This document shows positions 2,089 to 8,457 of a stretch of DNA of 29,823 nt, piece by piece. The first letter of the stretch is position 1; the number at the start of each line of letters is the position of its first letter. Where the stretch lies: the IMG/VR virus record IMGVR_UViG_3300046009_009408, positions 1-29,823 of that record. One strand, given 5' to 3'. Source of the stretch: a virus. The notes below the pieces were generated by a model that worked only from the letters and a program-made list of their open reading frames with translations, had not been told where the DNA came from and searched no databases. Both the position numbers and the translations under genes were made by a program.

Positions 2089-2106
2089 GCAAAATTATTC
2101 TATTGT

Positions 2107-3130
2107 GGTACCTGATTAATGGTACCGTTGAATGTGAAAGTCCTTCATGCGGTTTTTGTTCTGTAATAATCCAAAGGAGGAATATACACTAGGGTTTACA
2201 CTTATAGAAGGCTACTCAATGGGGATGAAGGTAATAAGAATTAAGAATATCTTTGTTACAGAATTTAATAAAATAGGTTTGATATTTACCTTTGTGAATT
2301 ATAGGAAAATACTGTTTAACAGCTAGTACATGTTAATTCACATAAAAAGTTGTAGTAATATTAAGGTTAAACTAGCAAGAATCTATTGTTGAGATACATG
2401 TGTGTACAGCAAAATGTTACCTTATAAATAACCAAGCTGAGTGCTTATCTAAAACATAATAGACGTATTATGCTAACAAGATTATGGTTTATTACTACAA
2501 ATTGTGTTGTTTCTCCTTGAGATAAGAGAAATTAGAGATTGTTCGGCTGGTGTATCAAATAGAGAGTTAAGTATGATGCCTGGGTTATCCTAACAATAAA
2601 TGACTCTACAACACAAATATCATTCTCATGTACTATAAGTCTACACCTTGTAAGATAGTACAAATAGTGCAATGCGTGACTTGAGCACTGTAAAAAAATC
2701 ACAAGGTTGCGATTGGGGTGATTACCCAGGGAAAAGCAAGATTCAGGCGTGTGTAGGGGTGCCAGTAGAGTGTAATGAAAAGTGCACACTTCAAAGATGA
2801 AATAATCATATCTAATTGTTTTGTAAGAAGCGTTTAAGTTTGAAACAAGATTGTAATACTACCATGAGATTGAGATGTATTACATGAGATTACAAAACAT
2901 TAGATAATACTCTATACCAATATTGTTTTACAATGCAGAAAATTAGCAGGTAATTATGAAAGCACCTGATATTGGTAGAAGACAATTATAAAATCTACTA
3001 CAGTATAACCTTATAGTAGATGGTGGCAGCATAAGAATTAAAGTAGAACTAAATGATTCTTGCTTATGCCTTAGATATAGTAATATGTCTGTAGTAGTTG
3101 TTAATGACCAAACATACATGGAATAACAAC
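2107..3130 (+). ncRNA. Large multi-domain structured RNA region
   Basis: Bases 2089-3180 contain no credible gene. Reading along the + strand gives a run of perfect inverted repeats that do not cross: 2107-2112/2121-2126; 2159-2169/2253-2263 (11 bp with one U-G); 2293-2301/2334-2342 (9 bp); 2350-2360/2490-2500 (11 bp) enclosing 2362-2367/2419-2424, 2434-2437/2443-2446 and 2455-2461/2466-2472; 2502-2510/2608-2616 (9 bp); 2629-2636/2655-2662 (8 bp); 2666-2670/2685-2689; 2697-2702/2718-2723; 2817-2826/2890-2899 (10 bp) enclosing 2852-2859/2877-2884; 2915-2923/2969-2977 (9 bp) enclosing 2947-2951/2964-2968; 2993-3000/3014-3021; 3029-3035/3063-3069; 3097-3103/3124-3130. One possible crossing pair is 2142-2148/2225-2231. 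This is more long, nested stems than expected by chance. Size, phage setting and tRNA-like genes nearby recall the large ornate RNAs GOLLD and ROOL, but no conserved sequence of either was recognised. Boundaries are approximate. Confidence 0.6.
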
Positions 3131-3180
3131 ATTGTGCGAGCCTATTGTGGTGGTAGGAAGGTAATTAATCTAATTAAATT

Positions 3181-3372
3181 ATGGAACACTTTGTTATGAC
3201 AACCGCATTTCATGATTTCTTGGAGGATCATTTAAAAATGACTCAAGAATTAAAAGAAAGGGCAATAGCTGAATACAAGAATTCATTGCTGATGCCCAGA
3301 AAAAAGAAAAAGAAGTTTAAAAAAACTGCTCTGATGCTATACAGTGTAGCATGCTGGGCAGAAAATATTTGA
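3181..3372 (+). CDS. Hypothetical basic protein (63 aa)
   Basis: Not recognised. A helical N-terminal half (FHDFLEDHLKMTQELKERAI) is followed by a lysine cluster (PRKKKKKFKKTA) and a short hydrophobic end. An internal ATG at 3196 is an alternative start. It is the first gene after the large structured RNA region and ends one base before the next start codon, so the two are probably translated together. The basic stretch could contact nucleic acid, which is only a guess. Confidence 0.5.
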   Translation: MEHFVMTTAFHDFLEDHLKMTQELKERAIAEYKNSLLMPRKKKKKFKKTALMLYSVACWAENI

Positions 3373-3373
3373 T

Positions 3374-3667
3374 ATGATTACACCCGTTAAGAATATTTTC
3401 CTACAACCTGGACAAATATTCAGAGTTGTAAGGTATGATGAACCCTTGCAACCACACTTTCTTGTAAGGGAGATGTATGAGGATCCGCATACTGATGCTG
3501 GATGGGATACTACTTTCAAATCTAAAAAATGGTTAGGTACTGCTTGGCATACTGTTGAACAAGAACTTCCTGCCTGGATAGGAAAGAGTTATGATGACCT
3601 GAATGAAGGTTTTACACTTCCATCTAGAAGATTTTACTGTGAAATTATTGAAATCATTGAACTTTAA
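3374..3667 (+). CDS. Hypothetical protein (97 aa)
   Basis: Not recognised. Compact soluble protein, probably mostly beta strand: PGQIFRVVRYDEPLQPHF near the N-terminus and SRRFYCEIIEIIEL at the C-terminus, with several tryptophans (WDTTF, WLGTAWHTVE, PAWIGKSYDDL). No signal peptide or membrane segment. The start lies one base after the stop of the preceding gene. Confidence 0.6.
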   Translation: MITPVKNIFLQPGQIFRVVRYDEPLQPHFLVREMYEDPHTDAGWDTTFKSKKWLGTAWHTVEQELPAWIGKSYDDLNEGFTLPSRRFYCEIIEIIEL

Positions 3668-3816: not shown

Positions 3817-4045
3817 TCTACTTGGAACATTTGTATTTGGGGGAATTATAATTTTCCTACTAATCTTATTGTGTGCTTATGTGGCTAGTGAATTTGAAGG
3901 TACTATCCTTGAGAAGATGGCAGAAGTTCTATTCTACATAGTTCTTACCCTGGCTATGATATTCATTGCCTACATTGTTATTTCATTCACTAAAATTCTA
4001 TTATCCTACATTGTTATTTCATTCACCAAAATTTTATTATCCTAA
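3809..4045 (+). CDS. Small membrane protein with duplicated C-terminal segment
   Basis: A 78-residue protein with two or three hydrophobic segments: LLGTFVFGGIIIFLLILLC, then VLFYIVLTLAMIFIAYIVIS. The frame is open from 3698, but ATG 3809 is chosen because it overlaps the stop of the small upstream gene and the 37 extra residues are out-of-frame reading of that gene. The last 24 residues are a 12-residue unit (YIVISFTKILLS) repeated twice, from a 36-bp tandem duplication. Likely an inner-membrane phage protein; role unknown. Confidence 0.55.
   Translation: MLSLLGTFVFGGIIIFLLILLCAYVASEFEGTILEKMAEVLFYIVLTLAMIFIAYIVISFTKILLSYIVISFTKILLS
3971..4042 (+). repeat. 36-bp in-frame tandem duplication
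   Basis: Bases 3971-4006 and 4007-4042 are two copies of a 36-bp unit that starts tacattgttatttcattcac. They differ at two positions, both silent, so the duplicated peptide YIVISFTKILLS is identical. It extends the C-terminus of a small membrane protein and is probably recent. Confidence 0.9.
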
Positions 4046-4317
4046 TGGCTAAAAAAAACCAACCAAAAAAGAAAAACACAGCTTCTGAAACTGACTGTGA
4101 AAAAAAGTTAAGTATTGTTACTAAAGCTGCAAATCTCCTAGAAGAAGATTTAAGACTTCATCAGTGGATCGCGGTTCTTAGTAAACAGCATTTGCAAGGC
4201 TGCTTAAATTACACGGGGGAGATAACCAGTGGGGACTTGGCATATGCTGAACAATTAACAAGAAGAATGTTAAAGCATGCAGAAAATAAAAAGAATCACG
4301 GTCCTTTGTCTGCTTAG
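4045..4317 (+). CDS. Hypothetical protein (90 aa)
   Basis: Not recognised. A lysine-rich N-terminus (MAKKNQPKKKNTAS) precedes an alpha-helical body with regularly spaced leucines (AANLLEEDLRLHQWIAVLSK, then DLAYAEQLTRRMLKHAENKK). The start overlaps the previous stop in a TAATG, so translation is probably coupled to the membrane protein upstream. No catalytic motif seen. Confidence 0.6.
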   Translation: MAKKNQPKKKNTASETDCEKKLSIVTKAANLLEEDLRLHQWIAVLSKQHLQGCLNYTGEITSGDLAYAEQLTRRMLKHAENKKNHGPLSA

Positions 4318-7317: not shown

Positions 7318-7417
7318 TGTGTGGTGGCGGAATGGTAGACGCAGTTGATTACAACCCCGAGGTAAAATCTTGGCGCATAAGAAGAGTTGATTACAGGTTC
7401 GAATCCTGTCCACACAG
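7318..7417 (+). tRNA. tRNA-Leu-like element A, abnormal centre
   Basis: Acceptor 7318-7324/7410-7416 is 7 bp perfect. The D arm is gcg 7327-7329/cgc 7340-7342 with the tRNA-Leu-like ggcggaatggtagacgc. T arm 7393-7409 (acagg ttcgaat cctgt); discriminator G7417. The total is 100 nt against about 85-90 for a Leu tRNA. The best anticodon stem is 7357-7361/7369-7373 with loop gtaaaat, giving anticodon AAA and U33. Fourteen bases lie between it and the D arm where one is normal. An 11-nt direct repeat (agttgattaca) sits at 7343-7353 and 7385-7395, and the first copy accounts for most of the excess. A disrupted, inserted or specialised tRNA; the amino acid cannot be assigned. Confidence 0.55.
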
Positions 7418-7692: not shown

Positions 7693-7776
7693 TAGTCAGG
7701 TGGCGGAATTGGTAGTTTATCCAATCAAAAGTAAGTGAGGATGAGTAGTTACTTCTATCAATCCTGTCTTGACTAC
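7693..7776 (+). other. Degenerate tRNA-like element B
   Basis: Acceptor strands 7693-7699 and 7769-7775 pair (7 bp, one G-U), and the left part keeps the ggtggcggaattggtag sequence of a Leu-type D arm. The D-stem partner is lost; instead attgg 7708-7712 pairs with ccaat 7721-7725. The next hairpin is aagtaa 7729-7734/ttactt 7749-7754 with a 14-base loop. Only the 3' half of a T arm (atcaatcctgt) remains. It looks like a decayed or remodelled relative of elements A and C and is unlikely to be a working tRNA. Confidence 0.4.
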
Positions 7777-7789
7777 AAAAAATAAAGAT

Positions 7790-7915
7790 ATGAAGCAAGT
7801 ATTAGAAACAATAAAACATGATTTTTTAATGGATCCTCTGTACTACATAACTCTCGCTTTAGCCGGGGTATTAATTTGTGTATTGATTGGAGGTGCTATA
7901 GCAAGTGTAATATAG
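7790..7915 (+). CDS. Small single-pass membrane protein (41 aa)
   Basis: A short frame from ATG 7790 encodes MKQVLETIKHDFLMDPL followed by one hydrophobic segment, YYITLALAGVLICVLIGGAI, and ends ASVI. Charged residues occur only at the N-terminus, giving a simple one-helix layout. Its TAG stop at 7913-7915 overlaps the first bases of tRNA-like element C. Family unknown. Confidence 0.45.
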   Translation: MKQVLETIKHDFLMDPLYYITLALAGVLICVLIGGAIASVI

Positions 7916-8032
7916 TGTGGTGGCGGAATGGTAGACGCTAAGAGTTTCTTTAATGAGGTGGTCTTAGAGTAGCTGACACACTTAGATATAACAAGGTAAC
8001 TACTCATACAGGTTCGAGTCCTGTCCACACAG
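7914..8032 (+). tRNA. tRNA-Leu-like element C, oversized anticodon and variable arms
   Basis: Acceptor 7915-7920/8025-8030 (6 bp; the seventh pair is A-A), D stem 7923-7925/7936-7938, T arm 8008-8024, discriminator G8032. The 5' shell (7915-7938) is identical to element A over 24 bases, and the 3' shell (8008-8035) differs by one base in 28; the interior is unrelated. The layout is that of a class II tRNA: taaga/tctta stem (7939-7943/7962-7966) with an 18-nt loop, then gagtag/ctactc (7967-7972/8000-8005) with a 27-nt loop. The length is 119 nt, about 30 more than a Leu tRNA. No 7-base anticodon loop can be drawn, so decoding is doubtful. The first base overlaps the upstream stop codon. Confidence 0.5.
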
Positions 8033-8049
8033 CTAATTAAATATAAAAC

Positions 8050-8316: not shown

Positions 8317-8320
8317 ACCA

Positions 8321-8434
8321 CAGGAGATGGCAGAGTGGTTATGTAAAAGGATTTTAAAGTTTAGGTATCAATAGAATTGCGTTTTGAAGAGGAGCCTAAT
8401 GCCTTACACACAGGTTCGAGTCCTGTTCTCCTGA
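8321..8434 (+). tRNA. tRNA-Ser-like element D, abnormal centre
   Basis: Acceptor 8321-8327/8427-8433 is 7 bp perfect (caggaga/tctcctg), discriminator A8434. T arm 8410-8426 (acagg ttcgagt cctgt). The D region tggcagagtggtta is the tRNA-Ser pattern. The total is 114 nt against about 88-90. The interior (8345-8409) has no canonical anticodon arm. It can instead form its own domain: tgtaa(aa)gg 8342-8350 with ccttaca 8402-8408, and ttagg 8361-8365 with cctaa 8395-8399; the outer helix would compete with the D stem. As in element C, a normal tRNA shell carries a foreign centre. Amino acid not assignable. Confidence 0.5.
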
Positions 8435-8457
8435 CTACAAATCAATTTAAAATCAAC

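Follow-up and report, generated by a model that had tools for sequence, protein, structure and literature searches.

GOLLD RNAs, which often occur near tRNA islands, have a universally conserved 3′ region and a less conserved 5′ region, form a homo-oligomeric RNA cage and are expressed at higher levels during lysis; ROOL RNAs have several pseudoknots and a complex secondary structure that is backed by covariation. GOLLD RNAs are often longer than 800 nt, and ROOL is a phage or prophage RNA of complex structure and unknown function (PMC12286853). OLE, an RNA of ~600 nt, is found mostly in Gram-positive extremophiles and anaerobes (PMC9723947, PMC12054373).

The region considered here, positions 2089-3180, is part of a 29.8-kb IMG/VR virus record (IMGVR_UViG_3300046009_009408), the whole 29,823-nt stretch of which was analyzed and is termed the window. 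It is from a dsDNA phage with nearly all of its genes on the + strand, including those for an AAA ATPase, a Band 7 lipoprotein, a PcfJ-like protein, a DnaB helicase and a Sak4-like protein; the kind of relatives retrieved suggests a freshwater phage with a Bacteroidota host. A preliminary description had proposed that the region encodes a large ornate RNA matching no known consensus. The latter point is borne out, in that an Rfam cmscan search, both at the gathering threshold and at E ≤ 10, gave no match to the region for GOLLD, ROOL, OLE or any other family. Since phages spare little DNA for non-coding sequence, a structured region of 1 kb should have a role.

Genomic context and coding content

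The region lies between the AAA ATPase gene (1270-2088, + strand; phrog_5534, Pfam AAA), which is directly upstream, and an ORF of 63 aa that starts at 3181. The closest syntenic phage, and the only one retrieved in searches with the neighboring genes, is represented by a 113-kb contig holding the locus L125, which is referred to here as the sister phage. Identity to this contig is 87% for the gene at 3374-3667, 56% for the PcfJ gene, 45% for the gene at 281-634, and 35% for that at 4045-4314; at the corresponding place both the AAA gene and the 2089-3180 region are missing from the contig. The 63-aa ORF ends in a strong local hairpin (3331-3361), the 150-nt windows around which have the lowest z scores (-4.8 and -4.5) of the first 8.7 kb. 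A ten-base direct repeat, CTATTGTGGT, is present near both ends of the region (2100-2109 and 3142-3151) and could reflect either chance or the trace of an insertion.

The earlier claim that the region contains no credible gene holds beyond position 2132, where there is no coding signal in any of the six frames (in 150-nt windows, the codon log-odds of the best of the six frames are the same as for shuffled DNA, the value for genes being 0.16) and where the ORFs have no match in Pfam or PHROGs, but it does not hold for the first ~45 nt. As found by tblastn and profile searches, a 35-codon ORF (2085-2192, + strand), the ATG of which overlaps the AAA ATPase stop (ATGA at 2085), begins with 16 codons (2085-2132) corresponding to the N terminus, MSKIILLWYLINGTV, of a conserved phage protein of ~60 aa. 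This protein, with the pattern M.KLIFIWYLITGTV..DGR..YA....DYAYK.EILEYIETGTFEYNEDLED, is present at some 22 related loci, many of which also have the RNA termed R2 below; its remaining two thirds were not found anywhere in the window. Thus, the small gene is cut after 16 codons and the non-coding region starts inside it. A recent pseudogene was also considered for the region as a whole and was rejected, there being no coding ghost in any frame.

Interruption of the small gene at 2085 by an intron or other inserted element fits with N-terminal codons that are present and then break off, and group II introns are known in phages (PMC12350094). Such an element is, nonetheless, extremely improbable here, because the 3′ part of the gene is absent from the window, there is no group I or group II match in Rfam even at E ≤ 10, and no element protein is present.

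Inverted repeats and folding energy

When spacers of up to 250 nt are allowed, the region has 12 perfect inverted repeats of 8 bp or more, 7 of which are at least 9 bp long. In 500 dinucleotide shuffles the number of repeats of this latter length was 1.66 ± 1.28, with none reaching 7, so the guess in the preliminary description that about one would occur by chance was close. Five of the six repeats that it specified are perfect, the sixth (2159-2169/2253-2263) having 8 perfect pairs followed by a G·U, within a helix that extends to 12 bp including 2 G·U pairs. The repeats had also been said to follow one another without crossing, which is nearly the case, one of the 21 pairs of repeats of at least 9 bp being crossed (2624-2889 with 2817-2899).

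To allow for nesting, a score was used that sums the excess length of nested, non-crossing perfect stems of at least 7 bp. The score for the region is 31, compared with 14.8 ± 3.6 in shuffles (0 of 200 reach 31) and 15.4 ± 4.6, with a maximum of 29, in 44 control tiles of 1092 nt that were taken from the rest of the window and are mostly coding (0 of 44 reach 31); when stems of at least 8 bp are required the score is 18, compared with 6.2 ± 2.5. Given that the nested-stem score lies above those of all 200 shuffles and all 44 tiles, the stem excess is real.

The stems map to successive domains on the + strand. Folding places a short perfect hairpin, GGTACC...GGTACC (2107-2126), inside the truncated ORF and upstream of a three-way-junction module, R1 (2156-2266, 111 nt), which is considered separately below. 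From the repeat count and folding, R1 is followed by a hairpin domain with 9 perfect closing bp (2293-2342), a domain with 11 perfect closing bp and inner hairpins (2350-2500), a domain with 9 perfect closing bp (2502-2616) and a hairpin of 8 perfect bp (2629-2662). The longest hairpin, of about 17 bp (2809-2906), is formed by 2809-2816/2899-2906 and then, with a one-base offset, by 2817-2826/2890-2899, and encloses an inner stem (2852-2859/2877-2884). Further downstream are hairpins of 9 perfect bp, or 11 including G·U (2915-2977), and of 8 perfect bp (2993-3021), and then, as obtained by folding, the hairpins GCATAAGAAT/ATTCTTGCTTATGC, with an inner gap (3026-3069), and GTTGTTA/TAACAAC (3097-3130). 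An 11-base hairpin loop, GGGTGATTACC, is common to position 2716 of the window and position 8951 of L125; this could be chance.

On comparison with shuffled copies, a check suggested in the preliminary description, the + strand folding energy proved no better than that of shuffled sequence (z about -1). The + strand MFE is -244 kcal/mol (z -1.4, with 8 of 60 shuffles equally good), z is -1.0 when the span is limited to 260 nt, and local folding energies (150 nt) are near shuffled values over most of the region. The minus strand folds better than the + strand (z -3.6), and folding without G·U pairs gives z values of -2.6 for the + strand and -3.5 for the minus strand. Values equal to or below these (z down to -5.8) are found for tiles in other parts of the window; folding energy therefore does not discriminate. 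With respect to the strand of the whole region, comparison of G·U with A·C at stem ends gave no difference, and no promoter or terminator stands out.

A conserved three-way junction, R1

R1 has a homologue in the sister phage (L125:9052-9150), and the two sequences, when each is folded alone, give the same three-way junction. The helices of R1 are P1 (2158-2167/2255-2264), P2 (2169-2172/2223-2226) and P3 (2227-2233/2248-2254); the 14-nt loop of P3 (2234-2247) is nearly constant, whereas an insert at about 2180-2215 is variable, with a length of ~45 or 33 nt in the two sequences. All 21 base pairs are kept in both phages. P1 has two double changes, U-A/G-C and G·U/U-A, which are compensatory, and two one-sided changes, C-G/U·G and U·G/U-A; sliding the partners by 1-3 columns lowers the pairing to 40-55%. 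In a shuffle control, 138 of 500 shuffles reach the observed covariation, the control being weak because there are only two R1 sequences. P2 and P3, neither of which varies between the two, are putative helices. Three G·U cells in R1 would be A·C on the minus strand, which assigns the RNA to the + strand. The mean column identity of R1 to L125 is 82%, although most of the flanking homologous proteins are only 35-56% identical, with one neighbor at 87%. The available sequences thus support R1 as a real structured RNA, with the good, but not strong, evidence that two sequences can provide, which we give moderate weight.

Homologues of the region were sought by blastn against a phage collection, in the whole records of 22 relatives retrieved by way of the AAA gene and in related loci, and R1 in the L125 contig was the only one obtained. 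A covariance model of R1, run on 49 complete phage records and about 220 loci, detected no copy beyond these two, and pattern scans, with two R1 signatures in IMG/VR and one in bacterial genomes, gave no further true copy. The covariation expected on the preliminary reading is seen for R1, in the form of kept pairs with compensatory changes in two sequences; for the other ~900 nt these searches gave no homologue.

A peptide reading of R1 was considered and rejected; although CNNPKE...GMKVIR[IV]KNIF can be read in frame, it has no homologues, the L125 frame lacks a start codon ahead of the conserved part, and the codon changes within the conserved blocks are mostly non-synonymous.

These results bear on whether the region might be decaying or filler DNA, i.e. 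that a deletion took the end of the small gene, with the repeats being incidental and R1 a relic shared by the two phages. The truncated gene at the 5′ edge, the lack of a homologue for most domains and a + strand energy that is not below that of shuffles are all consistent with decay. The nested-stem excess is not, nor is the lack of a coding ghost (the best-of-six mean equals that of shuffled sequence), nor the observation that R1 is better conserved than most neighboring genes, with its pairing kept; on balance, we regard decay as unlikely.

The location of R1 in the two phages is also informative. In L125 it sits in a 320-nt gap that has none of the other domains of the window, at a different place among the shared genes, and ends 26 nt before an ORF start (9176). 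The latter arrangement, together with invariant loops that look like an aptamer core, is as might be expected if R1 and the next hairpins were a cis-acting leader, controlling translation or termination of the following gene in the manner of a riboswitch or attenuator. In the window, however, about 900 nt separate R1 from the following ORF (3181), the downstream genes are unlike in the two phages and there is no terminator after R1, which makes a leader role very unlikely. Rather, given that the sister phage has R1 by itself and at another place, a modular array of structured RNAs is the best reading of the region. The L125 occurrence shows R1 to be an independent unit; for the other hairpins, it is the stem statistics that suggest that they are RNA units.

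Other structured RNAs of these phages

A second RNA, R2, which can form a pseudoknot, is present on the + strand of the window at 644-811 and 876-969. Its scaffold, TAATGCACCAT-hairpin-CAGTTGTAATA ... TATTACAACTGAGTGCAGAGGGG, is constant and encloses a variable insert, and its loop CCC can pair with a 3′ GGG. The R2 hairpin P2 covaries strongly, its stem being of many different types (CTCAC/GTGAG, CCTGA/TCAGG, TCTAC/GTAGA, CTATC/GATAG and TCAGC/GCTGA), and an 18-base piece of R2 is present in at least 120 viral stretches. The R2 sites match no family in Rfam 15, the motif was not found in the literature searched, and R2 has no match anywhere in 2089-3180. R2 is similar to R1 in being on the + strand of the same genome neighborhood and in having a constant scaffold around a variable insert. 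By contrast, their sequences are unrelated and their distributions differ, R1 being present in two phages only, whereas the R2 model matches 17 of the 18 related records examined, with 1-2 copies in each, most of these records having been chosen for the 18-base piece. R2 is probably a better discovery of the window than the 2089-3180 region, and a family that is present in almost all of the related records searched provides a conserved handle on the role of these RNAs.

RNAs resembling tRNAs are present in the window at 7318-7417, 7694-7778, 7914-8034 and 8319-8436, where ARAGORN calls none of them, and in relatives (L315:3521, L263:1430, L228:9571, L255, L047, L208, L346, L217 and L211). They have constant acceptor (often AGTCAGG...CCTGACTAC), D and T arms, with 47-117 nt of hypervariable, unrelated sequence between the D and T arms replacing the ordinary anticodon region. 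The variable inserts that were compared, as antisense, with the phage's own window were no better than shuffled sequence. A Hatchet ribozyme (Rfam RF02678, 82 bits) is present in a related phage (L360:18814-18950), near the R2 copy of that phage. R1 fits the design of a constant scaffold with a variable insert that is apparent in other intergenic RNAs of these phages, namely R2 and the tRNA-like RNAs; this is a shared pattern, their sequences being unrelated, and not a demonstrated relation.

Discussion

The proposal of a structured-RNA region is partly supported, R1 by homology, including compensatory changes, and the remainder by stem statistics; that the whole forms one molecule, as the term large ornate RNA implies, is not shown. 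The best overall explanation, in which we have middling confidence, is that the region is a + strand non-coding array of structured RNA modules, of which R1 is genuine, that probably act separately and in trans. Most of 2133-3180 would then comprise about nine hairpin or junction domains, occupying the former site of the 3′ end of the small truncated gene and probably read through from the operon of the AAA gene, with the transcript perhaps processed into units. Within this array R1 would have a three-way junction, constant in sequence, from which two loops are displayed, one variable (about 33-45 nt) and the other, of 14 nt, nearly constant. Given that R1 is found by itself, and at a different gene junction, in the sister phage, the modules are probably small scaffold RNAs that act in trans, each separately. 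The constant part may be recognized by a protein or be stabilizing, and the variable insert may meet a changing target. In any case, R1, being small and having a defined junction, lends itself to experimental tests. It is possible, albeit tentative, that this phage group has a toolkit of trans-acting RNAs, including R1, R2 and the tRNA-like RNAs, in which constant scaffolds carry hypervariable inserts, and that in 2133-3180 such modules are arrayed, or joined in one ~1-kb assembly, as a new class of phage RNA.

The alternative of one large ornate RNA of ~1 kb that folds as a whole and works in the manner of GOLLD or ROOL, possibly as an RNA-only assembly, would make R1 its 5′ domain. The few bases between successive domains (2342/2350 and 2500/2502), the nested-stem excess across the full length, the phage genome and a length within the GOLLD range are in accord with this. 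However, R1 in L125 is in a gap without the other domains, there is no Rfam match, the + strand energy is ordinary and the rest of the region has no homologue, hence no covariation; a single large RNA is thus doubtful, and the modular array is preferred.

With respect to the known systems, the region has, in common with OLE, the character of a large structured non-coding RNA, but has no match to the OLE model. It differs from ROOL in lacking an Rfam match and in that its conserved part is only 111 nt, for which the two sequences establish no set of pseudoknots. The differences from GOLLD include the lack of an Rfam match, of many-sequence covariation and of a conserved 3′ domain, the only conserved piece of the region (2156-2266) being near its 5′ end. 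ARAGORN calls no tRNA in the window, and the nearest tRNA-type matches in Rfam, both of them aberrant, lie 4.1 and 5.1 kb downstream, so that there is apparently no ordinary tRNA island beside the region. The region is, nonetheless, like GOLLD in being phage-encoded, non-coding, large and composed of several helical domains, and GOLLD and ROOL, the functions of which are still unknown, provide a precedent for phage RNAs that are structurally surprising.
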